A stretch of DNA of 27,829 bases from a bacterium (GCA_030652805.1 JAUSPT010000001.1:1-27829); one strand, 5' to 3'. Shown: positions 11,744 to 27,824, numbered from the stretch's first letter. Translations and numbers: made by a program. The notes: generated by a model from the letters alone, not told the origin.

Positions 11744-12643
11744 ATGAAATTCTGTAAGCATTTCGTTTTAAGTTTACTTGTTCTTTCCCTGATATCTTTA
11801 TCAGGTTGTGCAATACTTACTCACAACAAAGATATATCTCCTAATAATTCTGACGCCTATGCACATTATTGTATGGGCACTATATATGAGAATAGAATGG
11901 ATATTGATAAGGCTATACGTGAGTATGAGAGCACAATACAGGTAGACAGGACAGCAATAAGACCAAGATACATCCTGGCTGGACTCTACGTTAGAAGGGG
12001 ATTCATTGAACAGGCTATAGAGCAATATAGAATATTATCTAAGTTGGATCCGAAGAATACAAGACTCAGTACAGTTCTTGGCGCTTTGTATTTACATCAA
12101 GGACTTACGTACAGTAAAATAGGAGATTATGAACATGCTGTTGTATCCTATAAAAAGTTATTAAAAATATTTAGATCTGATTTAAGCTATTATTATCTTG
12201 GGGTTGCCTACGAGCGCATGGGAAAAATATATCATGCAGACAGGCAGTTTAACCGCGCTATAAAATTAAATCCGGATTATGCAGAAGCTTATAATTATTT
12301 AGGATATATGTATATAGATAAGGGGAAGAAACTTGATAAATCTATAAAATTAATTAAGAAGGCTCTTGAAATTGAGCCGGAGAACGGCTACTTTGTTGAC
12401 AGCTTAGGGTGGGGATATTACAAAAGAGGAATGCTTGAGGCAGCAATGTTACAGCTTGAAAGAGCTGTGGAGCTTACTAAAGCAGAAGAAGACGATCCTG
12501 TAATAAGAGATCATCTTGGAGATGTATATTTTCAAAAAAAAATGTATAATAAAGCTATCAAGCAGTGGGAAAAAGCGGTAGAATTGGGCGCAGAAGATAG
12601 GAAAATAATTGAAGAGAAAATAAAAAATGCAGGGGAGAACTAA
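11744..12643 (+). CDS. TPR-repeat lipoprotein
   Basis: 299-residue exported lipoprotein with signal and lipobox SLSGC (Cys22). From about residue 36 to the end it is built almost entirely of tetratricopeptide repeats: AYAHYCMGTIYENRMDIDKA, a block near 142-190 (YYYLGVAYERMGKIYHADRQ), YNYLGYMYIDKG, and a final LGDVYFQKKMYNKAIKQWEK. Such proteins scaffold envelope machines, and no specific partner can be named. It starts two bases after the hisG stop without a clear ribosome site, so translation is probably coupled. It ends one base before the next gene. Confidence 0.88.
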   Translation: MKFCKHFVLSLLVLSLISLSGCAILTHNKDISPNNSDAYAHYCMGTIYENRMDIDKAIREYESTIQVDRTAIRPRYILAGLYVRRGFIEQAIEQYRILSKLDPKNTRLSTVLGALYLHQGLTYSKIGDYEHAVVSYKKLLKIFRSDLSYYYLGVAYERMGKIYHADRQFNRAIKLNPDYAEAYNYLGYMYIDKGKKLDKSIKLIKKALEIEPENGYFVDSLGWGYYKRGMLEAAMLQLERAVELTKAEEDDPVIRDHLGDVYFQKKMYNKAIKQWEKAVELGAEDRKIIEEKIKNAGEN

Positions 12644-12644
12644 T

Positions 12645-13454
12645 ATGGACCTTAGATTTAATTATGAACCAAAATCCGGTTATACAAAGGTATTGTTTCC
12701 TGATGGAGAATTATTGAATTATATTGAATTCGGTATTATAAAACTTTCTCAAGGAGAACAGTATTCAGAAAATACAGAGGATAATGAGGTTGTCCTGGTT
12801 ATTCTTAAGGGAAAGTGCGTGATCAGTACAAACATTGTAAAGTGGGGACCGATAGGTGGGAGAAAGGATGTGTTTAGTGGTAAGGCTTACGCTACGTATA
12901 TCCCCAGACAGAACAGATATGATATTACTGCAACGACTGATTTAGAAGTGGCTGTATGCAAAGGAAGAACTGATTTTGCTGGGGAACCTGTTGTTATAAC
13001 TCCTGATAAAGTAAAAGTGCGATCTGTTGGAAATGGGATCTGGACAAGAAATGTGTATGATATTATTGATGAGAGAACTCCTGCAGGGTGTCTTCTTGTT
13101 GGGGAGACAATAAATCCTCCTGGCAATTGGTCATCATTTCCTCCGCATAAACACGATATTGAAAATCCACTAGAAGAAACAAAATTAGAAGAGGTATACT
13201 TTTTTAAAATTCAGCCTGAAGAAGGATTTGGCATGCAGAGACTTTATACAGCACCTGATTCGAAAGATGAAGGTTTTGATGAAGCAGTAGTCTTGAAGAA
13301 TAATACCGTAACAGTTATGCCAAGAGGTTATCATCCGGTCTGTGCCGCACCCGGATATTCAGTTTATTACCTCTGGATACTTGCAGGGAAAAACAGAAAA
13401 CTCATTCCCAAAGAAGATCCGCAGCATTCATGGATCGGGAAGAAAGTAAGTTAG
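12645..13454 (+). CDS. IolB-like sugar-acid isomerase (KduI/IolB family)
   Basis: Bicupin metal enzyme of 269 residues that converts an aldose-type uronate to its ketose. The diagnostic block PPGNWSSFPPHKHD (158-171) supplies metal ligands H168 and H170, followed by E183 (KLEEVYFF) and H230 (PRGYHPVCAAPG). These are the features of IolB, 5-deoxy-glucuronate isomerase of inositol breakdown. No other iol gene is in the window, and the next gene is a mannonate oxidoreductase-type SDR. I therefore infer that it may isomerise D-glucuronate to D-fructuronate, the same chemistry on a substrate that has the 5-hydroxyl. The ATG at 12645 follows AGGGGAG; an ATG at 12627 would overlap the previous gene and adds only six residues. 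The family is solid, the substrate is inferred. Confidence 0.85.
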   Translation: MDLRFNYEPKSGYTKVLFPDGELLNYIEFGIIKLSQGEQYSENTEDNEVVLVILKGKCVISTNIVKWGPIGGRKDVFSGKAYATYIPRQNRYDITATTDLEVAVCKGRTDFAGEPVVITPDKVKVRSVGNGIWTRNVYDIIDERTPAGCLLVGETINPPGNWSSFPPHKHDIENPLEETKLEEVYFFKIQPEEGFGMQRLYTAPDSKDEGFDEAVVLKNNTVTVMPRGYHPVCAAPGYSVYYLWILAGKNRKLIPKEDPQHSWIGKKVS

Positions 13455-13463
13455 GAGGGAGAA

Positions 13464-14327
13464 ATGGACAATAGCGGGTTATTTAACATTAGGAATAAAG
13501 TAGCTGTAATAACTGGAGGAGGAGGGATTCTTTGTGGCGAAATGGCAAGGGCTTTATCAAAGCATGAAGTAAAAGTAGCCATCCTGGATCTCAGAGAGGA
13601 TGTAGCAGTAGGACTTGCTGATGATATTGTAAAACATGGCGGAAAAGCAGTAGGCTTAGCCTGTAATGTGCTGGATAAAGAGAGCATTAAAAAGGCATCT
13701 GTCAGGATATTAGAGTTATTTGGAAGAGTGGATATTCTTATAAATGGCGCTGGAGGCAACAGCCCAAAGGCAACTACAGCTAAGGAGACTCTGGAGCCTG
13801 AGGATCTAAAGAAAATTGATGTACTGGGAAACAAAAGCTTTTTTGATATGGATCAGGAAGGAGTAAAATTTGTTTTCAATCTGAATTTTCTAGGTACTCT
13901 TCTCCCGACCCAGGTATTTGCGAAACTAATGGCGGAACAAGGAGATGGCGGGAATATCGTAAATATATCTTCCATGAATGCGTTCAGACCTTTAACAAAG
14001 ATTCCCGCATATTCAGCGGCAAAGGCAGCTGTGTCTAATTTTACACAATGGCTTGCAACTCACCTGTCTCCTGTTAATATTAGAGTTAATGCTATTGCGC
14101 CAGGGTTCTTTCTAACAGATCAGAATCGTTTCCTGCTTGTTGATGAAAAGACAGGCAAACTTACTCCAAGAGGGGAAACTATAATAAATCATACTCCAAT
14201 GCGCCGTTTTGGTGATCCAGCTGATTTAATTGGATCTCTTATATGGCTTGTTTCTCCTGCATCAGAATTTGTAACAGGAATTGTTGTTCCTGTAGACGGA
14301 GGCTTTTCTGCTTTTAGCGGAGTATAA
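13464..14327 (+). CDS. SDR oxidoreductase, D-mannonate oxidoreductase (fructuronate reductase) type
   Basis: Classical short-chain dehydrogenase of 287 residues. The nucleotide loop is TGGGGILCG (17-25), NGAGG is at 94-98, the catalytic Ser is S170 (NISSMNAF), and Tyr/Lys are Y183 and K187 (AYSAAK). Several blocks are typical of the SDR-type D-mannonate oxidoreductases as I remember them: GGN.PKATT, FNLNFLGTLLPTQVFAK, MNAFRPLTKIPAYSAAKAA and VDGGFSAFSGV. These reduce D-fructuronate to D-mannonate with NAD(P)H in glucuronate breakdown. TAGGAGG lies just before the start, nine bases after the IolB-like gene. No mannonate dehydratase (UxuA) is nearby, which makes the fate of mannonate the key question. 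Other sugar-acid reductase roles are possible. Confidence 0.82.
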   Translation: MDNSGLFNIRNKVAVITGGGGILCGEMARALSKHEVKVAILDLREDVAVGLADDIVKHGGKAVGLACNVLDKESIKKASVRILELFGRVDILINGAGGNSPKATTAKETLEPEDLKKIDVLGNKSFFDMDQEGVKFVFNLNFLGTLLPTQVFAKLMAEQGDGGNIVNISSMNAFRPLTKIPAYSAAKAAVSNFTQWLATHLSPVNIRVNAIAPGFFLTDQNRFLLVDEKTGKLTPRGETIINHTPMRRFGDPADLIGSLIWLVSPASEFVTGIVVPVDGGFSAFSGV

Positions 14328-14351
14328 ATAAAATGGAGGAGTTATAGAGTA

Positions 14352-15656
14352 ATGAGTGAATTAAAGAATGTTATTATTGCGCAGTCTGGCGGCCCATCAC
14401 CAGTAATTAATAACTCTCTCAGGGGAGTTATCGAGACATGTAAGCTGTTTCCTGAGAAGTTCGGCAGAATATATGCCGGATATCATGGAATAGAGGGGAT
14501 TCTTAAGGAGGAATTGTTGGATTTGAGTGCTCAGAGTGAAGAGGAAATATCTTTTTTAAGAACAACTCCAGCTGCTGGAGCAATAGGAACATGCCGCTAT
14601 AAATTAAAACAGGAACAAGTTGCAGATTTTAATCGTGTCATAGAGGTTTTTAAAGCTCATAATATCGGCTATTTTTTTTACATTGGCGGTAATGATTCAA
14701 TGGATACGGCCCATAAAATTAGTGTGCTTGCAAAGGATAAGGGGCTGGATTTAATTGCCGTAGGTGTGCCGAAAACAATAGACAATGATGTTGGGGATGA
14801 AAAATTTAAGCTTATAGATCATACCCCGGGATACGGCAGTGTAGCAAGATACTGGGCGTATTGCATTCAGAATGCAAATGAAGAGAATGCTGGGTCTTCT
14901 CCTGCAGATCCTGTTACGGTGATTCAGGCTATGGGAAGGAAGATAGGTTTTATTCCTGCAGCAGCGCGTCTTGCAGATCCTGAAAGGGAGATGCCGTTAC
15001 AGATATATCTTGCTGAGACTGAGCTTTCCATAGAAGATCTTGCAGATAATGTGAATGAAGAGTTGAAAAGATCAGGCAGAGTTATTGTGGTGATAAGTGA
15101 GGGATTTCAGGTTGGAGATATTGGAGAAGCAAAGGATGCTTTCGGACATACGGAGTTTGGGGCAAGTCAGAGTACTGTTAAGCAGATAGTTGCGAATTAT
15201 TTAAATAAAGTTGGACTTAAAGCAAGAGGCAGTGCAAGAGGCTTTATTCCTGGAACTGACCAGCGTGATACGGCAATTTATGCCTCTACAGTGGATTTAG
15301 ATGAAGCTTATAAAGTTGGACAGAAAGCGGTTCTGATAGCTTATGAAGGAACTAACGGTTTCATGTCTACAATTCTCAGAAAACCAGGGTCAATTTATAG
15401 TGTTGAATATGACAAGGTTTCTCTTGAGAAAGTTGCAAATTCTGAAAGAAAATTTCCTTCAAGCTGGATAGCAAAGAATAGGATTGATGTAACTGACGAG
15501 TTCATAAAATATGCAAGACCTCTCATTGGAGAGGATTGGGTGAGTGTGCCGATAGTTAACGGAATACAGCGCTTTGCGAGAATTAAGCCTGTATTTGCGG
15601 GAAAGAAATGTGCTGAGTATATTCCTCAGGCGTACAAATTAAAATATGGAGGGTAA
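14352..15656 (+). CDS. Phosphofructokinase, PPi-dependent type by motif
   Basis: PfkA-superfamily enzyme (434 residues) that phosphorylates fructose 6-phosphate at C1. The phosphoryl-donor loop reads GGNDS (112-116), and the next motif is PKTIDND with K141 and the catalytic base D144. ATP enzymes have GGDGS and PGTIDND. A residue larger than Gly at 115 together with a Lys at 141 marks the PPi-using group, where the donor loop is usually GGDDS; here the first Asp is Asn. Other landmarks are AMGRKIG and ISEGF. GGAGG lies well before the ATG. The length (versus about 320 for ATP-Pfk) also fits PPi-type or atypical clades. The sugar substrate could differ because it sits among sugar-acid genes. 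Confidence 0.83.
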   Translation: MSELKNVIIAQSGGPSPVINNSLRGVIETCKLFPEKFGRIYAGYHGIEGILKEELLDLSAQSEEEISFLRTTPAAGAIGTCRYKLKQEQVADFNRVIEVFKAHNIGYFFYIGGNDSMDTAHKISVLAKDKGLDLIAVGVPKTIDNDVGDEKFKLIDHTPGYGSVARYWAYCIQNANEENAGSSPADPVTVIQAMGRKIGFIPAAARLADPEREMPLQIYLAETELSIEDLADNVNEELKRSGRVIVVISEGFQVGDIGEAKDAFGHTEFGASQSTVKQIVANYLNKVGLKARGSARGFIPGTDQRDTAIYASTVDLDEAYKVGQKAVLIAYEGTNGFMSTILRKPGSIYSVEYDKVSLEKVANSERKFPSSWIAKNRIDVTDEFIKYARPLIGEDWVSVPIVNGIQRFARIKPVFAGKKCAEYIPQAYKLKYGG

Positions 15657-15659
15657 TCT

Positions 15660-16544
15660 ATGCAGGATGCAGCAGGGAAATTAAAAGAATTTAAACCTGA
15701 AAAGCAGTTTTTTGTTGGAATTGATTCAGATGGGTGTGCGTTTGACACTATGGAAGTAAAGCATAAGGAATGTTTTATTCCTAATATTATAAATGAATGG
15801 GAACTTCAGGCAGTATCAAAGTATGCAAGAGAAGCTGCAGAATTTGTAAACCTTTATTCAAAGTGGCGTGGAATAAACAGGTTTCCTGCTCTTACAATGG
15901 TTTTTGATCTTCTTCAGGAAAGGGAAGATGTAAAAAAACGCAAGGTTAATATTCCTGAAGCAAAGACTTTGCGCGAATGGATTGAGAAAGAAACAAAGCT
16001 CGGCAATCCAGCTCTGGAACAAGTCGTTCAGGAAACAAAAGACCCTGTGTTATCTCAGGCATTAAAATGGTCTAAGGCTGTTAATGAGACAGTAGCAAAG
16101 ATAGTTCGTGGGGTACCTCCGTTTCCTTTCGTCAGGGAAAGTCTTGAGAAGATTTTCAATACAGTAGATGCAATTGTTGTGTCTGCGACTCCATGTGAAG
16201 CTCTCAAGAGAGAGTGGGATGAACATGATATTGCTAAATACGTTAGGGTAATTGCAGGACAGGAGATGGGAACAAAGAAAGAACATCTGGCATTTGCTGC
16301 TGTAGGCAACTATAAGCCAAATCATATTCTAATGATAGGTGACGCCCCCGGAGATATGAAAGCTGCACGCGCTAACAATGCTCTCTTTTATCCCATTAAT
16401 CCCGGAGATGAGGATATATCATGGGAGAGATTTCACAATGAAGCCTTTGATAAATTTATAAATGGAACATATGCTGGAGATTATGAAAAGTCCTTAATAG
16501 ATGAATTTGATAAATATTTACCCAGCATCCCTCCATGGAAATAG
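15660..16544 (+). CDS. HAD-superfamily hydrolase, unassigned
   Basis: 294-residue HAD protein, probably a phosphatase. Motif I is GIDSDGCAFDTM (nucleophile D22, acid D24), motif II is the S of VVSATPCEAL, motif III is a Lys in the KKEH region, and motif IV is MIGDAPGDMKAA. About 110-150 residues lie between motif I and motif II, a large helical cap (C1 type). The charged, Trp-rich cap segments do not match a subfamily I know. It is three bases after the phosphofructokinase and one base before pdxB, with a GGAGGG site. The position suggests removal of phosphate from a sugar or sugar-acid phosphate, or repair of a side product. The substrate is unknown. Confidence 0.78.
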   Translation: MQDAAGKLKEFKPEKQFFVGIDSDGCAFDTMEVKHKECFIPNIINEWELQAVSKYAREAAEFVNLYSKWRGINRFPALTMVFDLLQEREDVKKRKVNIPEAKTLREWIEKETKLGNPALEQVVQETKDPVLSQALKWSKAVNETVAKIVRGVPPFPFVRESLEKIFNTVDAIVVSATPCEALKREWDEHDIAKYVRVIAGQEMGTKKEHLAFAAVGNYKPNHILMIGDAPGDMKAARANNALFYPINPGDEDISWERFHNEAFDKFINGTYAGDYEKSLIDEFDKYLPSIPPWK

Positions 16545-16545
16545 T

Positions 16546-17703
16546 GTGAAAATAGTTGTTGATGAGAATATTCCATTTGCCAAAGAGGCATTTTCTACAT
16601 TAGGCAAGGTTGAAACTTCACACGGAAGAGAGATAACTCCTCAAAAGGTGGAAGATGCTGATGTTTTGATTGTCCGCTCTATCACAAAGGTTAATTCTGA
16701 ACTTTTAGAAAAAAGTCAGGTTAAGTTTGTCGGGACAGCCACGATAGGGCTTGATCATATTGATGTTGAGTATTTGAAGAAAAGAAATATCGGGTTTGCA
16801 AGCGCGCCTGGCTCTAATTCTAATTCCGTTTCAGAGTATATAGCCTGTGGATTATTATATACAGCAAACAAGTTGTATCTCAATCTTTGCAATTTGACAA
16901 TTGGGGTTGTGGGAGTTGGTAGTGTTGGCAGTAAAGTTGCAAAGAAGGCTAAGGCTCTGGGAATGAGAATGCTTCTTAATGACCCTCCTCTTTTTGAGAG
17001 AACAGGAAATATAAAATATCGTCCGATACAAGAATTGATGGCAAATTGTGATATATTAACCTTTCATGTTCCCCTTGAAAGACAGGGCAAGTATCCTACA
17101 TATCATATGATAGATGAAAAGTTTCTGAGACGTTTAAAGAAATGTCCTGTAATTGTAAATACCTCTCGTGGTGGAGTTATGGACACAGAGGCTGTTAAGA
17201 GTGTCCTGATGCATTGCAGGATATCACAGGTTATTTTGGATGTGTGGGAAAACGAGCCGGATATTGATACAGAGATGCTTAAAATGGCCTTGATTGGGAC
17301 TCCTCATATTGCAGGTTATTCCTTTGACGGAAAAGTCAATGGGATGTTTATGGTATACAACAGCCTGTGTCAATATTTAAATAAGAAAGCGAAATGGAAT
17401 CCCAATAACTTTTTGCCGGATAGCAATTGTCCTGTTATTAAAGTTGGTGAAATGAATAATGGTTCATTAGAAAAAAAATTGCACGAAGTTATTTCTCAAG
17501 TGTATGATATTGAAAAGGATGATTCAAAACTTAGGGAATCTTTCTCTCTACCTGCTGAGAAAAGTGGCGCATATTTCGATTCTTTGAGAAAAAATTATCC
17601 TGTGAGAAGAGAATTTTTTAATACAGAGATCTTGTTCGAAAAAGAAGATTCGCAATTAGCGAATGTCTTATCAGAAATTGGTTTTAAAGTAGACAAAATA
17701 TAA
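16546..17703 (+). CDS. pdxB: PdxB-type 4-phosphoerythronate dehydrogenase
   Basis: D-2-hydroxyacid dehydrogenase of 385 residues when started at GTG 16546, two bases after the HAD stop. KIVVDENIPFAKEAFSTLG at the N-terminus, GTATIGLDHID, the GVGSVGSK nucleotide loop, and the catalytic residues R208, E237 and H254 fall at exactly the E. coli PdxB numbers. That supports the GTG start over the ATG at 16501. The C-terminal PdxB dimerisation domain is present (YDIEKDD...LRKNYPVRREF). PdxB oxidises 4-phosphoerythronate in the DXP-dependent route to vitamin B6. No other pdx gene is here, so the enzyme may serve either B6 synthesis or the surrounding sugar-acid chemistry. Confidence 0.88.
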   Translation: MKIVVDENIPFAKEAFSTLGKVETSHGREITPQKVEDADVLIVRSITKVNSELLEKSQVKFVGTATIGLDHIDVEYLKKRNIGFASAPGSNSNSVSEYIACGLLYTANKLYLNLCNLTIGVVGVGSVGSKVAKKAKALGMRMLLNDPPLFERTGNIKYRPIQELMANCDILTFHVPLERQGKYPTYHMIDEKFLRRLKKCPVIVNTSRGGVMDTEAVKSVLMHCRISQVILDVWENEPDIDTEMLKMALIGTPHIAGYSFDGKVNGMFMVYNSLCQYLNKKAKWNPNNFLPDSNCPVIKVGEMNNGSLEKKLHEVISQVYDIEKDDSKLRESFSLPAEKSGAYFDSLRKNYPVRREFFNTEILFEKEDSQLANVLSEIGFKVDKI

Positions 17704-17719
17704 GAGGAGAACATTAAAG

Positions 17720-19030
17720 ATGCCATGGTTTTATGAAGAATCCAAGGAGATAGATTTAAGTAAGAAGCAGGAAGTAATGGAGAGGGTGGTGCAGGAAGCA
17801 AGTGAGCGGATAACAAAAAATTTCAAAAAGGTGCTTTTATTGCCGCCGGATATTACCCGTTATCATTCAGGCGCAGGACAATTAACAGAGATAATTTACA
17901 AGCTTCTTCCCAAGAGTTGTAAGGTTGATGTTATACCTACATTGGGGCAGCATGTTCCTCATACTGATGAAGAGAATAAATGGATGTTTGGTTCTATTCC
18001 TCAGAATTGTTTTCTTGAGCATGATTGGCGAAAGGGTTGTAAAACCCTTGGAGAGGTTTCTCGGGATTATGTAAAGGAGGTCAGTGAAGGTAAAGCTGAT
18101 TGGCCAATACCTGTTGAAATTAACAGAAAAGTTACAGAAGAGAATTATGATATTATAGTAAATATAGGGCATGTTGTTCCTCATGAAGTGCTGGGTTTTG
18201 CCAATCATAACAAGAATTACTTTATTGGTCTTGGCGGAAAAGAAATGATATGTGCTTCCCATATGATGGCAGCAGCGTGTGGTATTGAAAATAATTTAGG
18301 ACAGCTTATAACACCTTTAAGAGCGTGTTACAATAAAGCGGAGAAAGAGTATTTAAACAACATTCCTCATGTATATGTTCAAATCGTTATGGCAAGAAAT
18401 CAGCAGGATAAACTCGTTACTACCGGATTATATGTCGGGAATGACCTTGAAACATATTTAATGGCAGCCAGAAAAAGCAAAGAGCAGAATATTACTGTTT
18501 TTGATAAACCTGTTAAGAAGATTGTTGCAGTAATGCAGGCAGATGAGTTTAAAAGTACATGGGTAGCTAATAAAGCAATATACCGCACACGTATGGCTAT
18601 AGCAGATGGAGGAGAATTATTGGTTATTGCTCCGGGACTTGAGCGTTTTGGAGAACAGCCGGAGGTTGATGAGATTATCCGTAAATATGGATACGTTGGA
18701 ACTCCAGCTGTTATGGAGCAATATAGAAAGAATGAAGATATGCAGGACCTAAGGCATGCTACTGCGCACCTTATTCATGGATCATCTGAGGGGCGTTTTA
18801 ACATAACATACGCTCCCGGGAAATTGACAAAAGAGGAGATAGAAGGAGTTAATTTTAAATATGCGGATATTAACGAAGCTTTAAATAGATACAATCCTGA
18901 AAAGATGTCAGAAGGTTGGAATACCATGCCTGATGGGGAACAAGTCTTTTTTATCAGCTCTCCGTCAGCAGGTTTGTGGGCATGTAGAGAAAAATTAGAA
19001 GCACGAAATTCGAAATACGAAACAAAATAG
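17720..19030 (+). CDS. LarA-superfamily nickel-dependent hydroxyacid racemase/epimerase
   Basis: 436 residues of the LarA (DUF2088) superfamily, which moves a hydride at the C2 hydroxyl of 2-hydroxyacids using a nickel-pincer nucleotide. Landmark residues are conserved: R47 (PPDITR), H78 (TLGQH), H155 (VPHEVLGF), K165 and H181. H155 to K165 is ten residues and K165 to H181 is sixteen, as between H174, K184 (covalent cofactor lysine) and H200 (nickel ligand) of Lactobacillus LarA. Superfamily members act on lactate, malate, other 2-hydroxyacids and, at C2, on gluconate. Here the context (mannonate-type SDR, gnd) points to mannonate/gluconate epimerisation, which is inference. The cofactor genes larB, larC and larE are not in the window. 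GAGGAG precedes the ATG, 16 bases after pdxB. Confidence 0.87.
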   Translation: MPWFYEESKEIDLSKKQEVMERVVQEASERITKNFKKVLLLPPDITRYHSGAGQLTEIIYKLLPKSCKVDVIPTLGQHVPHTDEENKWMFGSIPQNCFLEHDWRKGCKTLGEVSRDYVKEVSEGKADWPIPVEINRKVTEENYDIIVNIGHVVPHEVLGFANHNKNYFIGLGGKEMICASHMMAAACGIENNLGQLITPLRACYNKAEKEYLNNIPHVYVQIVMARNQQDKLVTTGLYVGNDLETYLMAARKSKEQNITVFDKPVKKIVAVMQADEFKSTWVANKAIYRTRMAIADGGELLVIAPGLERFGEQPEVDEIIRKYGYVGTPAVMEQYRKNEDMQDLRHATAHLIHGSSEGRFNITYAPGKLTKEEIEGVNFKYADINEALNRYNPEKMSEGWNTMPDGEQVFFISSPSAGLWACREKLEARNSKYETK

Positions 19031-19059
19031 AATAAAATAAACAAAAACAGGAGGATAGG

Positions 19060-20580
19060 ATGATAAAGAAAGTGTACGTGTTTTGTGTAGCTGCAGGGAT
19101 GTTTGTTGTTAGTATGAGAGCGGGGTTTGCTGAGCCGGCGCTGACGATCTATAATCAGAATTTTGCAGTTGTGCGCGACCAGCTGAGTCTTGAGTTGAAG
19201 AAGGGAACAAATGATGTTCGCCTGACAGATATAACAGCGCATCTGGAGCCTGATTCAGTGATTCTGCGCGATCCAAAAGGTAAAAGCGCAATCCGGATCC
19301 TTGAACAAAACTACCGCGCAGATCCAGTTTCACAGGGACTTCTGCTTTCTCTATATGAAGGAAAAACAATAGACTTTCTTATCTACCGCGGCGAGAAAAC
19401 TGAGATTGTTAAGGGAAAAATTATTCGCAGCGGCTATGTTCCTCATCAGAAAGGAATGCAGCAATATGGAGCTCAATACCGTTACAGGCAGATAGCTTAT
19501 GCCAATCCGAATGTAGGAGGTCAACCTGTAATTGAAGTGGATGGCAAGATTAGATTCGGATTGCCGGGCTTACCGCTTTTTCCTTCTTTAACGGACGACA
19601 CTGTCCTAAAGCCGACTCTTAATTGGCTTCTTGAAACCAACAGGCAGGGCAGAATAGAAGCGGAACTATGTTATATCAGCGGAGGTATGAGCTGGAAGGC
19701 GGATTATAATGTTGTGGCGCCGGAAAAGGGAGATGTTCTTGACATTGTCGGCTGGATAACAATGGATAATCAAAGCGGTAAGACATTTAAGAATGCAAAG
19801 ATCAAACTTATGGCTGGAGATGTAAGCAAGATTCAACCCGGGCAGGAAGATAGGTTAGGAACACTTGCAATGTCCAAAATGGAGAGTAGTGGTATGCGTC
19901 CTCCTGTATCTGAAAAAGCATTTGATGAATATCATCTCTATACTTTACATCGTTCTACAACTCTTCATGACAGAGAAACAAAACAAGTTGAATTTATGCG
20001 CGCTTCTGAAGTCAAATCACAACGTTTGTATGTCTATGATGGGGCAAAGATTGACTGGAACCGTTATCGCGGCTGGAACGCAGATAATATCCGTCAGGAT
20101 CGTGATTATGGCACGCAGTGTAATTCCAAGGTGTGGGTAATGAGGGAGTTTAAAAATTCAGAAGAGAACTGTTTAGGCATTCCTCTGCCACAAGGCCGTA
20201 TGCGATTCTATCGCCGCGGTGATGACGGGCAACTGGAGTTTACAGGAGAAAACACCATTGACCATACGCCAAAAGACGAAACTGTTCGTGTGTATACAGG
20301 AAATGCGTTTGATATTGTCGGGGAAAGGAAACGCACCTACTACAAGATTGATACAAATCAGGACTGGCTGGATGAAGCGTTTGAAATTAAACTCCGTAAT
20401 CATAAAAAAGAGAAGGTAGAAATCAGAGTCGTTGAGCACCTGTATCGCTGGATTAACTGGAATATCACAGAGAAATCAAACATTTATCTCAAGACTGACA
20501 GTCAGACCATTGAATTCCGGGTTCAACTGGCACCAGACGAGGAGAAGACTATAACCTACAAGGTTCACTATACGTGGTAA
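19060..20580 (+). CDS. Secreted DUF4139-domain protein
   Basis: 506 residues with a signal peptide (hydrophobic 8-18, likely cut after GFA, residue 24) and no lipobox. The mature N-terminus (LTIYNQNFAVVRDQLSLEL, a beta strand-rich block) and the region from about 200 to the end (ELCYISGGMSWKADYNVV, MDNQSGKTFKNAKIKLMAGD, the closing strands ending KTITYKVHYTW) are typical of DUF4139 proteins. Their role is unknown; they are all-beta exported proteins often near envelope or adhesion genes. AGGAGG precedes the ATG, 29 bases after the LarA homologue. Codon use looks more G+C-rich than upstream genes. It is paired with the next secreted protein (6-base gap), so the two probably act together in the periplasm or at the surface. 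Confidence 0.82.
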   Translation: MIKKVYVFCVAAGMFVVSMRAGFAEPALTIYNQNFAVVRDQLSLELKKGTNDVRLTDITAHLEPDSVILRDPKGKSAIRILEQNYRADPVSQGLLLSLYEGKTIDFLIYRGEKTEIVKGKIIRSGYVPHQKGMQQYGAQYRYRQIAYANPNVGGQPVIEVDGKIRFGLPGLPLFPSLTDDTVLKPTLNWLLETNRQGRIEAELCYISGGMSWKADYNVVAPEKGDVLDIVGWITMDNQSGKTFKNAKIKLMAGDVSKIQPGQEDRLGTLAMSKMESSGMRPPVSEKAFDEYHLYTLHRSTTLHDRETKQVEFMRASEVKSQRLYVYDGAKIDWNRYRGWNADNIRQDRDYGTQCNSKVWVMREFKNSEENCLGIPLPQGRMRFYRRGDDGQLEFTGENTIDHTPKDETVRVYTGNAFDIVGERKRTYYKIDTNQDWLDEAFEIKLRNHKKEKVEIRVVEHLYRWINWNITEKSNIYLKTDSQTIEFRVQLAPDEEKTITYKVHYTW

Positions 20581-20586
20581 AACCAG

Positions 20587-23220
20587 ATGAGGAATAAAAA
20601 ATTTATTCTAATATTTTTTCTTTCTGTCTTTTCTGTGCCTGTCGTATCCTGGGCGGATTTAGAGACAGCCTATTTCTTTGCCAACGGCAATGGTAGAGCC
20701 TGGGCAATAGAAGAAGGTAGTGATAAAAGACCGGACATTGGTATAGATGAGGATGGTCAAGCTTGGGTAATCTGTAATGGCAGTATTTATCGTGCTAATC
20801 CGGAAGTGTTGGGTGAGGTTATGGTTGCCGAAACAACAGGGATGAACCCTCTGTTCTTCGCCAAATCCCCTCAGGGTCAACTCTATCTACTCTGGAAAGG
20901 CGATTGCGGACTAAAGATAACTACTTTCTCAAAAGGCAAAATAAGAGAACTTGCTTATCTTCAAAAAAGTATTGAGGGACGGTGGAGTGTTTTTTTCTGC
21001 GTGGATAGCGCGGGACGCATCTGGATAAGCGGTAATTTCCCGGTAATCTATTGCTGGGAAGATGGACAATGGAAAGAATATAAATTAAAACAGGAGATGT
21101 TTCTTCTTAATGAATACGAAAGGGAAAGATGGCCTGAGCTCCTCTCACGGATCATTAAGAGTACGGAAGTATCGCCGGGCAAGATAATCTTTTGGGGGAC
21201 TGATCTGGATGGCTTGCTTGTTTTTTCTGAAGACAAGATTGAACATTTTCGCCAGATCTTTTCTCTACCGCGAATTAGATTCAAGGAAATAAAAGTCGTT
21301 ACTGATGGAGTCTTCTGGGCGGTGGAGGGTTTCAATCGGAAACCACAACTTTTTGAGGTAGATATGAAAAAGAAGAAAGGGACACTTCTTATTCCTCCTA
21401 ATCACCCTTTGAGAAATCAGGAGATTTTGCAGATTTTTCCGCAGGAACAAGGAGAAGGTTTTGTTCTTTGTAAAACAGAGAATGACGGCAAGGTTTCCCT
21501 ATGGCGGATAGTTAAGGAGGGAATAAAGTGCGAAATTGAAAGCATTGGACAAACATTTGTTTCTTGCGGAGGGGATCCTTCTTCGCTACTAATAAGTAAA
21601 AAAGGTCACCTTTGGCTCTCTGCCTTCCATCTGGGTATCTGGCTAAAGTTAAAGGATGCGGATGAGTGGGAACATCTGGATTATTCTTTTGGCTTTCCGC
21701 TACCTGCGGTGAGCAATGTAAAAGAAGACAAGGATGGAAATATCTGGGTTTCTGGTTATCGTAGTAATGGGTTGGTCTGTTTGAGCTCCCCTGTAAAGGC
21801 GGTTAAAAAATGGTTAAACTGTGCTCACTCTCAAAATTGGAAAATGGTAGGGAGACTTAGAGAATATGTTTTTGATAGCGATGACTGTCTCTGGACAATA
21901 TTGAGCAGAAATCCGTTTATCCTCGGTCGGTTTGCCTGGAGTGGATGGATGGCTCTTACTCCTTCAAAACAGCCGAAGTATCATAACCACATCTTATGCA
22001 GGGATAATAAAGGGGCTGTATGGCTAGTCGATCTTCGTGGACGGGAGGGAGGACGAGGACCTATCGTGTTTGAAAATAAAAAAGATGCCTACTTTTCTAA
22101 CATGGAATTGGCCTGTGAATCTCTGGCAAAGAAGGGTGAGATACGTAATGTTTATGAGGATCGGTATAGTTCTTATGGCGATATCCGCAATGCTATTTGT
22201 AGAATAAAGAATGAAAAGGCTTGTTTTTGTAGCCCTGCTTTGTTGCATTATTTTGATGGCAAGGGTTGGAAACATTGGCAAATTCAAGATATAGATGCTA
22301 TTTCCAGAGGGGAATTTGATAGAGCCTCCAACCAGCCCTTTTTTGATGCAAAAAGCAATCTTTGTGTGAATATAAGTCAAAGAACATGGTTATGGAATGG
22401 CAAGCGGTGGAATGCAGTCGGTTTTCTTGAAGGGACTTATGAGAAAACGAAACGATTGAATGCATTGAGAAAGGAGCGAGAAGAGGGTCTACAAGAGAAG
22501 TTAAATCGTTCAGGTGAACTTGGAAAAATAACGCGAGTAGTTGAGGCAAACGACGGAACATTCTGGGCGCTGACACAATTTTCTCTTTACAAAGTTGTGG
22601 GAGATTTATGGGTTGAGATAGATAAGGGCAGGCATCCATTAATGGGAGACCAAATAGATTCTATTCGTATAGACAAAGAAGGCAACCTTTTTGTTAAGGC
22701 CGAACTGAACGCGTATTGCAGATTAGCAGACAAACAGTTTCCTCCTGAGACATTAATAGAGGAGATGTTAGTGGTTATAAAGAAGATTCCTTTCTCCATA
22801 TCTTTCTCAGGTAAGGACGATAAAACTCCAGCAGAGAAACTCAGATTTTCGTGGTCCATGGATGAAGGAAAGTGGTCATCTCCGTCCTATGATAAAACTA
22901 TATCTTTTGAGCATCTTGCGAATGGGGAACATGTTTTGAAAGTAAAAGCATTAGACGAAGAACTTAATTACGATTCTACGCCTGCAGTCGTTCGATTTAC
23001 TGTGAAGGTTGATGCTAAAAATTTACTTGCTGAAAATTTGGAAATGTTAAAATCTTCTGATTACAAGGAGCGTGAGAAAGCAGTAAGGAATCTTGTTCAT
23101 ATTGGAAGAGAAGCCTTGTCGGAATTAAAGAAACTCAGAGAGGAGAGCAAAGACGATGATCTTCACTGGTGGATAGATGTTGTCATGCAGCAAATAGAGC
23201 AAAGTGTTACTTCAAAATAA
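20587..23220 (+). CDS. Large secreted beta-propeller protein with Y_Y_Y and HEAT-like ends
   Basis: 877 residues; signal peptide likely cut after SWA (residue 23). Residues about 25-720 contain repeated propeller-blade signatures of the two-component-regulator propeller kind: DEDGQAWVICNGSIYR, DSAGRIWISG, ISKKGHLWLSAF, DKDGNIWVSGYRSNGL, DKEGNLFV. An Ig-like Y_Y_Y domain follows (about 735-808: LRFSWSMDEGKWSSPS, NGEHVLKVKALDEE). The C-terminus (about 813-877) is a short HEAT-like helical unit (DYKEREKAVRNLVHIGREA). In hybrid sensors this propeller plus Y_Y_Y layout is the periplasmic glycan sensor, but here no membrane segment or kinase follows, so it is a free exported binding protein. It starts six bases after the DUF4139 gene. 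A sugar or polymer ligand is inferred. Confidence 0.8.
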   Translation: MRNKKFILIFFLSVFSVPVVSWADLETAYFFANGNGRAWAIEEGSDKRPDIGIDEDGQAWVICNGSIYRANPEVLGEVMVAETTGMNPLFFAKSPQGQLYLLWKGDCGLKITTFSKGKIRELAYLQKSIEGRWSVFFCVDSAGRIWISGNFPVIYCWEDGQWKEYKLKQEMFLLNEYERERWPELLSRIIKSTEVSPGKIIFWGTDLDGLLVFSEDKIEHFRQIFSLPRIRFKEIKVVTDGVFWAVEGFNRKPQLFEVDMKKKKGTLLIPPNHPLRNQEILQIFPQEQGEGFVLCKTENDGKVSLWRIVKEGIKCEIESIGQTFVSCGGDPSSLLISKKGHLWLSAFHLGIWLKLKDADEWEHLDYSFGFPLPAVSNVKEDKDGNIWVSGYRSNGLVCLSSPVKAVKKWLNCAHSQNWKMVGRLREYVFDSDDCLWTILSRNPFILGRFAWSGWMALTPSKQPKYHNHILCRDNKGAVWLVDLRGREGGRGPIVFENKKDAYFSNMELACESLAKKGEIRNVYEDRYSSYGDIRNAICRIKNEKACFCSPALLHYFDGKGWKHWQIQDIDAISRGEFDRASNQPFFDAKSNLCVNISQRTWLWNGKRWNAVGFLEGTYEKTKRLNALRKEREEGLQEKLNRSGELGKITRVVEANDGTFWALTQFSLYKVVGDLWVEIDKGRHPLMGDQIDSIRIDKEGNLFVKAELNAYCRLADKQFPPETLIEEMLVVIKKIPFSISFSGKDDKTPAEKLRFSWSMDEGKWSSPSYDKTISFEHLANGEHVLKVKALDEELNYDSTPAVVRFTVKVDAKNLLAENLEMLKSSDYKEREKAVRNLVHIGREALSELKKLREESKDDDLHWWIDVVMQQIEQSVTSK

Positions 23221-23249
23221 ACTTAACAAACAACAGGAGGATAATGTAG

Positions 23250-24662
23250 ATGCAGAAAGCAGACATTGGACTGATCGGACTTGCTGTGATGGGAGAGAAT
23301 CTTGTGCTGAACATGGAAAGCAAGGGATTTACTGTAGCGGTTTTTAACAGAACTGTTGAGAAGGTTGATAGATTTATAAACAGTGGGGCAAAGGGCAAGA
23401 ATATTATTGGAACTCACTCAATAGAAGAATTTGTCAATTCTTTAAAATCTCCGCGCAAAATTATGCTTATGGTTAAAGCTGGACAGGCTGTGGACGATTT
23501 TATAGAAAAACTGATACCTTATCTGGAAAAGGGAGATATTATTATTGATGGAGGCAATTCTCATTTCCCTGACACTATATGCAGGACAAAGTACTTGGAA
23601 TCTAAAGAACTTCTTTTTATAGGAACAGGTGTTTCAGGTGGTGAAGAAGGCGCATTAAAGGGTCCCAGTATTATGCCTGGAGGTTCTCCTGAAGCGTGGA
23701 AACATGTTAAACCTATATTACAGAAAATTTGTGCAATGACAGATGGCGAGCCATGCTGTCAATGGATAGGTTCGGACGGCGCAGGACATTTTGTAAAGAT
23801 GGTGCATAACGGCATTGAATATGGAGATATGCAGCTTATATGTGAGGCTTATTTTCTGATGAAAAATGCTTTAGGAATAGAAGCTCCGGAACAGCATAAG
23901 ATATTTGCGGAATGGAACAAGGGGGAATTAGATAGTTATTTGATTGAAATAACCCGAGATATATTATCAAAGACTGATCCTGATACAGGAAAACCTTTAG
24001 TGGAGATAATACTTGATACAGCAGGTCAGAAAGGAACCGGCAAATGGACTTCTCAGGCTGCCTTGGATCTTGGTATTCCAGCTCAGACAATTGCTGAAGC
24101 CGTATTTGCAAGATGCATTTCTGCTATAAAACAGGAAAGAGTAAATGCATCTAAAGTGCTTAATGGTCCATCAGAAAAGTATGAAGGAGATAAAGGGGAA
24201 TTCGTAAAAGCTATAAAGGATGCTCTTTATGCGTCAAAGGTATGTTCTTATGCTCAGGGCTATGCTTTGATGAGGGCTGCTGCAAAGGAATATGGATGGA
24301 ATCTAAATTTTGGCGAGATTGCATTAATGTGGCGCGGCGGATGTATAATCAGGGCGCGGTTTCTTGGAGAGATAAAGAAAGTCTTTGATAAAACTCCTGA
24401 TCTACCAAATCTATTGCTTGACTCCTATTTCAAGGAAATTGTTGAGAAGAATCAGGATAACTGGCGCAAGGTTGTTGCAACAGCAGTAGAGCTTGGCATA
24501 CCCACTCCTGCATTCAGTTCAGCGCTTGCATACTTTGACAGCTATAGAAGAGAAAGCCTTCCCGCAAATCTCCTGCAGGCCCAAAGGGATTATTTTGGTG
24601 CGCATACTTATAAGAGAGTTGATAAAGAAGGTACATTCCATACGGATTGGCTGAATATATAG
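23250..24662 (+). CDS. gnd: 6-phosphogluconate dehydrogenase, decarboxylating
   Basis: Oxidises and decarboxylates 6-phosphogluconate to ribulose 5-phosphate, normally with NADP. The 470 residues match the long E. coli-type enzyme. The nucleotide loop is [12 protein letters not shown] (7-18), with NRT (33-35) for the NADP 2'-phosphate. The substrate loop is [12 protein letters not shown] (125-136). The catalytic K183, N187 and E190 sit in [15 protein letters not shown]. The C-terminal YFGAHTY motif that closes the dimer active site is present. AGGAGG lies 11 bases before the ATG. No zwf or pgl is adjacent, so 6-phosphogluconate may come from gluconate rather than from glucose 6-phosphate oxidation (inference). 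Confidence 0.97.
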
Positions 24663-24674
24663 ATAGAGGCGTAT

Positions 24675-25721
24675 ATGAAACCCGTTGTAATCAATGCGAT
24701 AGCACCAACAAGAATCTGCGACGTTGGTGGATGGACAGACACTCATTTTGCCAGGTTCGGTGCCGTGCTCAATATTGCGATATACCCATATGTCGAGGTT
24801 CAAGTTTTCCCTTTGGACTCTGCAGAGCACGAGGATCGCATAGTCATTTCCGCAGAAAATTTTGGTGAATCTTATTCATTGGACCCGGAACACGTTGTCT
24901 ACAATAAACATCCTCTAATCGAGGCAGCCATCAAGATAATGAAGATACCACAAGCTGTTGCGTTGAGAATTAATATCTTTTCGTACGCTCCTCCGGGAGC
25001 GTCAATGGGAACTTCTGCAGCAGTGTCTGTAGCTTTAATCGGAGCGCTTGATGCCCTGACTAAAGAACACTTGACGTCACATGAAATAGCAGCCACTGCC
25101 CACTCAATTGAAACTAAAGAACTGGGGCTGGAGTGCGGTATTCAGGATCAGCTTGCAAGCGCCTATGGCGGAATCAACTTCATTGAGATGCATGATTTTC
25201 CTCACTCAAACATTTCAAGCGTACAGCTATCGGATGACGTTTGGTGGGAGCTTGAACACCGTCTTGTTGTAACATATATAGGCCAACCACACAGTTCATC
25301 AGAAATACATAAAATGGTTATCGCCAATCTTGGAAATTCTCCACATGAAGACAAGCGGATAAAGCAACTGCGGAAGCTGGCTCGTCAGGCGAAAAACGCT
25401 CTCAACGCAGGTGACCTTCCAGCACTTGGAAGAACTTTTAATAGAAATACTGAAGTTCAGCGGGAGCTCCATAAGGGTCTTGTATGCGACAAGTTTGAAG
25501 AGATCATATCAATAGCTGAAGATTTCCATGCTCTCGGCTGCAAGGTAAACGGTGCAGGAGGAGACGGCGGTTCAATTGCTATCCTGACGAATGGTGATAT
25601 GGCGAAGAAAAGAGAATTGCAGGAGGTACTTGTTCAAAGAGGTTTCCAGTGTCTCCCAATTTATCTTTCACGTCGCGGACTCCGAGTTTGGAAGATGCTT
25701 TCTAACAATGTAGTGGAATAA
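24675..25721 (+). CDS. GHMP-family sugar kinase (fucokinase / HddA-like)
   Basis: 348 residues. Motif 1 is APTRICDVGGWTDTHFARFG (9-28), motif 2 the ATP loop PPGASMGTSAAVSVA, and motif 3 KVNGAGGDGGSIAIL near 290. The R-x4-GGWTDT form is shared by kinases that phosphorylate sugars at the anomeric carbon (fucokinase, heptose-7-phosphate 1-kinase, glucuronokinase relatives), unlike the homoserine-kinase branch. The substrate is not decided. Candidates are heptose 7-phosphate, which would fit the kdsC link to lipopolysaccharide, or a uronate, which would fit the cluster. It starts 12 bases after gnd with GAGG upstream. Parts of the gene are near 50 percent G+C, higher than most of the window, possibly a transfer. 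Its 3' end overlaps the convergent AMMECR1 gene by 20 bases. Confidence 0.8.
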   Translation: MKPVVINAIAPTRICDVGGWTDTHFARFGAVLNIAIYPYVEVQVFPLDSAEHEDRIVISAENFGESYSLDPEHVVYNKHPLIEAAIKIMKIPQAVALRINIFSYAPPGASMGTSAAVSVALIGALDALTKEHLTSHEIAATAHSIETKELGLECGIQDQLASAYGGINFIEMHDFPHSNISSVQLSDDVWWELEHRLVVTYIGQPHSSSEIHKMVIANLGNSPHEDKRIKQLRKLARQAKNALNAGDLPALGRTFNRNTEVQRELHKGLVCDKFEEIISIAEDFHALGCKVNGAGGDGGSIAILTNGDMAKKRELQEVLVQRGFQCLPIYLSRRGLRVWKMLSNNVVE

Positions 25722-26573: not shown

Positions 26574-27824
26574 TTAAGCCGCCTTTCTTAAGGGCACATC
26601 CTTCGGTATTAATTCTATATTCTCAAATCGAAGATATCTTCTCTCCTGCCATCGCTCGTTCATAAATACCGCCATTATGAATATTATCTTCTCGCATCCA
26701 TCCATGTTTGGCATATGATTGCCCATCACATCTGTCCGCCGTCTGAACTCTCTAAAAACCCTCTCTATTGGGTTAGTCGTTCTTATCTTACTACGATGAC
26801 TCTTATCAAATACAAAGAAACTCAAAAGCTCATCCAGATCCTTCTCTATACAATTTACTGCATTTGGACACATCTTTTCCCATCTGTATTTCCATCTCTT
26901 GAATCTTTTCCTGGCTTGAGCTACATTTTCTGCCTTATACACTCCTTTAACTTCTCCCAGACATTTCTCTTGATCCTTCCTCCTGATGTATTTAGCTGCA
27001 TTCCTTAACTTATGCACCCAGCACCTTTGTCTTAATACACGAGCATATATTCTATCCAGAGCGCTGGATAACCCGCCGCATCCATCAATAATAATTAACT
27101 TTAAGTCATTCCCTTTTAGTCCCCTCTCATACAAGTTAAATAAAAATCCTTCCCAGTTCTCTTTCGACTCATTCCTCACTACCATAAAGTCTATTAGCTC
27201 CTTCTTTCCTTCTCTGTCTACTCCGTAAGCTGCCAGTACAACCTGTCTCTTCCCATTTCCGCTTATGCCTTTTATCGTTATTACTATTCCATCCAGATAA
27301 AGATAGACATACTTATCTTCCAAATCGCGACGATGGAATTTCTCCATCTCAGGCTTTATTCGATTCGTAATAGTACTTACCTGTGTTGAACTTATCCCTT
27401 CTTTCCCCAATATCGCCTCTAATCCCTTCTTCATCTTTCGTGTGCTTACTCCCACTAAATACAAATTAGCTATCAGCTCTAATATCTGTCTCTCATTTTT
27501 AGTATATTTTGGTAATACTTTACTTTCATAATTCTGCTTCCTTAACCGAGGTCGCCTTATCTCTATCTCTCCTAAACTTGTCTTTATTTTGATTGATGTA
27601 CTCCCGGAACGAAACCCTATCCTATCCGGACTTCTTTCATAACTCTCTAACTCTAAATATTCTTCCTGCTCAAATCGCAGTAATCCCTCCAATAGCCTTT
27701 TATAGTTAATCCTGCTTTGCTCTCTCATAAATCCCCAAAGGTCTCTTTCTGCTTCCTTTAACATGTAGGTTAAATTTTGCTTGCCTTCACCAAAATTCAG
27801 TGTATCATACCTTCCTGGGCGCAT
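26574..27824 (-). CDS. IS256-family (Mutator-type) transposase
   Basis: 416-residue DDE transposase. The first catalytic Asp is D178 in YLYLDGIVI, the second D247 in LIIIDGCGG, and the conserved C/H block is QRCWVHKLRNAAKYI (266-280). The Glu is E354 in TTNPIERVFREFRRR, followed by TDVMGNHMPN, all typical of IS256. The length is normal and the frame is open from the right edge inwards. The ATG used is five bases from the window end, so a slightly earlier start outside the window is possible. Base use is biased to A-rich codons on the coding strand. Confidence 0.92.
   Translation of the reverse strand: MRPGRYDTLNFGEGKQNLTYMLKEAERDLWGFMREQSRINYKRLLEGLLRFEQEEYLELESYERSPDRIGFRSGSTSIKIKTSLGEIEIRRPRLRKQNYESKVLPKYTKNERQILELIANLYLVGVSTRKMKKGLEAILGKEGISSTQVSTITNRIKPEMEKFHRRDLEDKYVYLYLDGIVITIKGISGNGKRQVVLAAYGVDREGKKELIDFMVVRNESKENWEGFLFNLYERGLKGNDLKLIIIDGCGGLSSALDRIYARVLRQRCWVHKLRNAAKYIRRKDQEKCLGEVKGVYKAENVAQARKRFKRWKYRWEKMCPNAVNCIEKDLDELLSFFVFDKSHRSKIRTTNPIERVFREFRRRTDVMGNHMPNMDGCEKIIFIMAVFMNERWQERRYLRFENIELIPKDVPLRKAA

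Follow-up and report, generated by a model that had tools for sequence, protein, structure and literature searches.

A route through C2 epimerization of mannonate to gluconate was proposed in 2012 for the UxaR-regulated gnd-uxaRED-gntEK genes of Thermotoga maritima (Rodionova 2012; PMC3750489), and the epimerase GntE of this bacterium was assayed in 2020 (PMC7583248). The latter study established that members of LarA groups 19 and 20 (GntE1 and GntE2) epimerize D-mannonate/D-gluconate and predicted a hexonate substrate for group 18 from residues common to groups 19 and 20, no group-18 enzyme being among the LarA homologues assayed (Desguin 2020; PMC7583248). A related flow was described for galacturonate fermentation by Lactobacillus suebicus, in which mannonate is converted to 6-phosphomannonate and then to 6-phosphogluconate, the genes having been left unidentified there (PMC6978723).

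Here we analyzed a stretch of 27,829 nucleotides of DNA from an uncultured bacterium (GCA_030652805.1 JAUSPT010000001.1:1-27829), referred to below as the window and belonging to genome G000. We propose, with a probability of about 0.5, that an operon in it encodes a sugar-acid route ending in Gnd, as a variant of the Thermotoga-type route. A sequence-only reading of the window had put forward C2 epimerization in place of the dehydratase route, an idea that was anticipated by the T. maritima proposal and by the GntE assay.

The gene run and its conservation

By calling ORFs in the window, we found that the genes are real and lie on the strand and at the coordinates where the sequence-only reading had placed them. 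Families were assigned with curated profile models, each with its own cut-off. Positions 12627-25721 of the plus strand, to which all coordinates below refer, form one tight gene run, neighbouring genes being spaced by -44 to +29 bp, in the order IolB, SDR, PPi-type PFK, HAD phosphatase, PdxB-like dehydrogenase, LarA, DUF4139 protein, propeller-repeat protein, Gnd and GHMP kinase. The operon holds no uronate transporter or polysaccharide lyase. Gnd itself (23250-24662) is a decarboxylating 6-phosphogluconate dehydrogenase (TIGR00873, 764.7 bits, cut-off 427).

We found 36 related loci. HAD, LarA and Gnd stand together as in the window in six related loci (L006-L011), most of which also include the SDR and PdxB, with PdxB adjoining LarA in four of the six. 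This HAD-LarA-Gnd linkage is seen in the genus of the window, in G005/G006 and in G007/G008. The SDR lies within the cluster in G001, G004, G005 and G006. The locus of G002 has no SDR, and the closest match to it (43%) comes from elsewhere in that genome. In a phylogenetic tree, the Gnd-linked LarAs formed one clade with a support of 100/100, and therefore the LarA-Gnd linkage probably arose only once. Moreover, since the same-phylum searches returned 5 genomes for the window and 7 for G008 with zero overlap, the loci with Gnd-linked LarA seem to come from two phyla or more; the search of G008's phylum added no extra linked copies.

Outside this clade, G014 (Victivallales, on another LarA branch) has contiguous SDR, PFK, HAD and Gnd genes (54-71% identity for PFK, HAD and Gnd, 44% for SDR), with LarA elsewhere in the genome. 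LarA is unlinked to the cluster genes in most PVC genomes, and we found in PVC genomes no conserved neighbours of LarA that would explain its function. Gnd and a group-18 LarA co-occur in 16/16 genomes, and Gnd is present in none of the six genomes without a group-18 LarA. As five of these six belong to one phylum-level group and the other is a 62% complete genome, this co-occurrence does not amount to many independent observations.

The first gene of the run (12627-13454) encodes an IolB/KduI-family cupin isomerase (TIGR04378, 260.5 bits, cut-off 205; PF04962), whose nearest solved structure is 2qjv. IolB is present through the genus as well as in G005 and G014, and only the window and G004 have it joined to SDR-PFK. 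In G001, there is a break between IolB and SDR, with IolB on another contig together with hisG and the TPR gene. In the window, hisG and a TPR gene precede the run without a real gap, and hisG-TPR-IolB may thus be one unit that is joined to the genes from SDR onwards. Hence, of the linkage between IolB, SDR, LarA and Gnd claimed by the sequence-only reading, the LarA-Gnd part is backed by synteny in one clade and by the co-occurrence described above, but the IolB part does not extend beyond the genus.

Between LarA and Gnd, the genes for a DUF4139-like protein (19060-20580; PF13598, 30.9 bits, slightly under the cut-off) and for a large protein with two-component-regulator-propeller repeats (20587-23220; Reg_prop, PF07494) are local insertions that are not conserved. 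The former is present in G001 and absent in G002 and G004, and the latter is not found between LarA and Gnd in any of these three genomes. At the end of the run, the GHMP kinase gene (24675-25721; PF00288, with HddA, mevalonate kinase and galactokinase models matching below their cut-offs only) adjoins Gnd in the window and in G001 only, where the match is 96%.

A candidate route from uronates to ribulose 5-phosphate

The LarA homologue (17720-19030) scored 620.6 bits (cut-off 500) with NF052594 (“nickel-dependent putative hexonate epimerase”), compared to 61.5 bits with the next-best LarA model. NF052594 corresponds to LarA group 18 of Desguin 2020, which makes the protein a putative nickel-pincer hexonate C2 epimerase. 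By aligning it to T. maritima GntE2 (4nar) and using the residue numbers given in PMC7583248, we assigned its catalytic and cofactor residues to D44, R47, H78, H155, K165, H181 and K285, equivalent to D72, R75, H108, H174, K184, H200 and K298 of LarA. These residues, as well as E156-V157 of the substrate loop, are invariant in 16 homologues, and both the E-V loop and the tryptophan of helix alpha-11 agree with the description of groups 18-20 by Desguin 2020. Since all the GntE-type catalytic and cofactor residues are kept and invariant in homologues, the sequence fits a working hexonate-type epimerase. The profile score and the residue set together support the assignment to the hexonate-epimerase branch that had been made from the sequence alone.

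Then, we searched for enzymes that could feed Gnd. First, zwf was absent from all nine genomes searched (controls positive in 9/14), so the known enzyme does not supply 6-phosphogluconate from glucose 6-phosphate. As Gnd is encoded without a glucose-6-phosphate dehydrogenase beside it, the product of LarA is the obvious source of 6-phosphogluconate in these genomes. Second, the dehydratase route, which had been reported as not visible in the window, is not visible beyond it either. Indeed, uxuA was absent from all eight genomes searched (controls positive in 5/14) and the composite E. coli query, for which Gnd (~60% identity) was the internal positive control, gave no match to RspA/ManD. With single-sequence E. 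coli queries, Eda had no credible match (best E = 0.003) and KdgK had weak PfkB-type matches alone (20-32%). Third, the gluconate kinase already noticed to be missing from the window was not recognized in the genome either, as a known GntK or FGGY gluconokinase: there was no match to the P-loop GntK of E. coli in nine genomes, the FGGY kinases of G000 scored as XylB, as RhaB-like or, for one of them, as unclassified, without any gluconokinase, and in G004, which is 91% complete, FGGY kinases are lacking altogether. A kinase of another family is possible. The exact route to 6-phosphogluconate put forward by the sequence-only reading is weakened by this result, with no recognized gluconate kinase in the locus or in the genome.

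As to the isomerase, UxaC turned up with the composite E. coli query in just two genomes, G002 and G004 (the G004 copy being 54% identical to that of E. coli). The E. coli query gave no UxaC match in G000 or G001, which leaves IolB as the only isomerase candidate there. The IolB of the window shares its Pfam family with KduI of E. coli, which is reported to aid the conversion of glucuronate and galacturonate (PMC3578941). Unlike KduI, it is classed by its score as a 5-deoxyglucuronate isomerase, with an activity on glucuronate that is only putative. We infer that IolB acts here as a uronate isomerase, possibly on glucuronate; we also considered that it takes part in myo-inositol catabolism. 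The following gene (13464-14327) encodes an SDR of the D-mannonate oxidoreductase type and a candidate fructuronate reductase (NF006132, 409 bits, cut-off 281).

In the route that we propose, for which all substrates, the direction of the flow and the kinase are predictions, fructuronate would be supplied by an isomerase acting on uronates, namely the IolB-like protein here and UxaC in two relatives, and would be reduced by the SDR to D-mannonate. The group-18 LarA would invert C2, thereby interconverting the mannonate and gluconate forms, and, following phosphorylation at C6 by a presumed kinase, Gnd would decarboxylate the resulting 6-phosphogluconate and thus yield ribulose 5-phosphate. The PPi-type PFK would probably serve the non-oxidative pentose-phosphate branch (on sedoheptulose 7-phosphate), or might itself be the missing sugar-acid kinase, while PdxB, and perhaps HAD, would clear away 4-phosphoerythronate, which arises as a side product and inhibits Gnd.

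The PPi-type PFK-like enzyme (14352-15656; NF010675, 390 bits, cut-off 273) carries the D104/K124 signature of PPi-dependent enzymes. It belongs to a well-supported clade apart from a second PFK paralogue of the same genome (G000:C56), both having PPi-type signatures. To judge whether it could be a gluconate kinase, we compared its phosphate-site residues (P at 162 and T at 249) with those of E. coli PfkA, from which they differ, as do those of the second paralogue (K and Y). PPi-PFKs can phosphorylate sedoheptulose 7-phosphate and thereby replace transaldolase (PMC5673643). Alternatively, mannonate might be phosphorylated first, the PFK-clade enzyme perhaps making 6-phosphomannonate, from which LarA would then produce 6-phosphogluconate for Gnd, as in L. 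suebicus extracts. The KM of GntE2 for mannonate is 17 mM and thus leaves open the natural substrate of its relatives (PMC7583248). In addition, no gluconate kinase was found, and outside the genus no kinase-like gene other than that of this separate PFK clade is conserved with the cluster. However, we found no literature report of a LarA homologue acting on a phosphorylated acid. To our knowledge, members of the PFK family have no activity on aldonates either, and we consider this order of steps unlikely, albeit one to keep in mind.

Accessory genes and maturation of the predicted nickel cofactor

The HAD phosphatase gene (15660-16544; HAD_2, 31.9 bits) encodes a protein with a large helical cap, whose four HAD motifs are all conserved in 15 homologues. 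Its AlphaFold model has a pLDDT of 92. HMM and single-sequence searches of the PDB yielded no close relative, and Foldseek gave generic HAD folds alone. The next gene (16501-17703), which shares 44 bp with the HAD gene, encodes a PdxB-like 4-phosphoerythronate dehydrogenase whose score with NF001309 (431.5 bits) is 2.5 bits below the cut-off of 434. Both genes had been omitted by the sequence-only reading, yet they are singled out by conservation.

Phosphatases including Pho13 and CpgA remove 4-phosphoerythronate, an inhibitor of Gnd (PMC6449344), and the presence of PdxB and HAD beside Gnd may reflect this compound. One could thus imagine that PdxB, HAD and LarA handle (4-phospho)erythronate, either for the synthesis of vitamin B6 by the DXP-dependent route or to protect Gnd, which would then be the enzyme protected. 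The inhibition of Gnd, the position of PdxB next to LarA in most of the linked loci and its overlap with HAD in the window speak for it, as does the presence of PdxA and PdxJ, both encoded in G000 elsewhere than in the operon and, according to the E. coli query, in most genomes. Nevertheless, the active-site residues of LarA are those of the hexonate group, the cluster has an SDR of the mannonate-oxidoreductase type, and HAD also occurs in G017-G020, genomes that have neither LarA nor Gnd. This last observation also means that HAD is not dedicated to the route. We therefore regard a cluster devoted to C4 acids as rather improbable, and retain the hexonate route ending in Gnd.

Such a route would require an active LarA. 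G000, G001, G002, G004 and G005 all encode LarB and LarE (in G000 with 293 and 350 bits, respectively, both above cut-off). In the same five genomes, PF01969 found no LarC, and TIGR00299 gave nothing above chance in G000-G005, with control genomes and G006-G008 matching. Because two models fail to match, we accept LarC as absent, that is, from all five genomes of the genus and one other, whereas G006-G013 have it. Genome completeness is 90-96%, and incompleteness alone would cause LarC to be missed in the four best genomes with a probability of ~2e-5 if these were independent, the genomes being related; four independent misses are very unlikely. The sequence-only reading had counted the absence of larB, larC or larE against its own scheme. 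We found larB and larE, and the loss of larC throughout the genus weighs against the scheme in part.

As LarC is absent, an active nickel cofactor is not guaranteed: nickel is either inserted by some other protein, or the cofactor is a different one. It could also be that LarA has been without an active nickel cofactor since LarC was lost, and fulfils another role or is decaying. In LarC-less genomes, however, the NPN-binding and catalytic residues are all retained, and such an unchanged active site argues, at the level of sequence, against a loss of function. LarB and LarE are retained as well, with larE and larB directly upstream of larA in the LarC-less G005. An inactive LarA is therefore doubtful and, in our view, clearly improbable. 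The most far-reaching version of the system, in which the group-18 LarA would be the missing 6-phosphomannonate/6-phosphogluconate 2-epimerase, acting together with a PFK-derived PPi-dependent sugar-acid kinase and a LarC-free nickel-pincer cofactor, seems very unlikely to us.

Finally, a reversed flow, in which Gnd would carboxylate ribulose 5-phosphate to 6-phosphogluconate, HAD would free gluconate, and LarA, the SDR and the isomerase would lead to mannonate and glucuronate, is highly improbable, since the oxidation of mannonate to fructuronate is uphill, HAD is not limited to Gnd-bearing genomes and a homologue of UDP-glucose dehydrogenase offers the normal way to UDP-glucuronate, even though the conserved cluster has a phosphatase and not a gluconate kinase, and a GHMP sugar kinase gene and a GalU-like gene adjoin larB in G000. 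Gnd is also able to run backwards in vivo (PMC7669889).

Relation to described systems

Taken together, the scheme of the sequence-only reading gains from the LarA branch, the link to Gnd, the absence of zwf and uxuA and the UxaC of two genus members, but loses on the kinase, LarC, the linkage of IolB and novelty. What the sequences themselves show is which families the genes belong to, that the catalytic residues are kept, that the linkage is conserved and that zwf, uxuA and any known gluconate kinase are missing. These results provide a gene-context prediction for a LarA branch for which we found no assay in the literature, and raise the questions of which kinase makes 6-phosphogluconate and how this LarA-bearing lineage copes without LarC. 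Our comparison suggests that what is new here is a known route idea combined with such a LarA group, with no recognized sugar-acid kinase and with no LarC.

As proposed for the window lineage, mannonate carbon enters 6-phosphogluconate in L. suebicus by C2 epimerization and is decarboxylated by 6PGDH. In L. suebicus, uxuA, kdgK and kdgA were not detected, and uxuA is likewise absent from the window lineage. There, in contrast to the route proposed here, mannonate is phosphorylated first, the epimerase acts on the 6-phosphate and a phosphoketolase follows. GntE1 and GntE2 (groups 19 and 20; PMC7583248) share with the window protein the superfamily, the NPN-binding and catalytic residues and the E-V/S type of substrate loop; unlike for these two, we found no assay for group 18 in the literature, and the window lineage encodes no LarC.

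The T. maritima locus follows a similar logic, and its epimerase has been assayed. Its LarA homologue belongs to the distant group 20 (GntE2), compared to group 18 in the window lineage, its locus includes GntK and UxaE, and T. maritima has retained the dehydratase route (kdgAK-uxuBA) as well. In the window lineage there is no recognized gluconate kinase, uxuA or LarC, and HAD, PdxB and PFK are added. Both loci nonetheless combine Gnd with an SDR mannonate oxidoreductase and a C2 epimerase of the LarA superfamily, a set that would lead from mannonate to gluconate, 6-phosphogluconate and ribulose 5-phosphate.

Gene order from larA to gnd

In the window, a DUF4139 gene and a propeller-repeat gene are interposed between larA and gnd (19060-23220). 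In the same-genus relative G001, DUF4139 alone lies between the two genes, with no propeller-repeat gene there, and neither gene was found between larA and gnd in two further relatives of the genus (G002 and G004). Transposase-like ORFs lie within the window at either end (150-1415 and 26574-27824), presumably resembling the IS1380 and IS256 families.

Neighbours of the HAD phosphatase

Genes for a class-III aminotransferase, a Gfo/Idh-like protein and a NagA-like amidohydrolase precede the HAD gene in G002 (L006:79-4984), and the aminotransferase is also close to the Gnd cluster in the related locus L009. The HAD phosphatase is kept at 54-67% identity in four genomes without LarA or Gnd (G017-G020; L131-L134), where an apparent hisI gene adjoins it.

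Maturation of the putative nickel-pincer cofactor

The window's own genome encodes LarB (G000:C100:70518-71141) and LarE (G000:C92:49922-50701). Directly upstream of larB, one gene encodes a GalU-like nucleotidyltransferase and another a GHMP sugar kinase (L061:6448-9145, on C100), the latter being conserved at 96% in G001 and 89% in G004. No LarC was found in the related genomes and G005 (G000-G005), though LarA, LarB and LarE are present. These LarC-less genomes must either provide for nickel insertion by other means or use a different cofactor.
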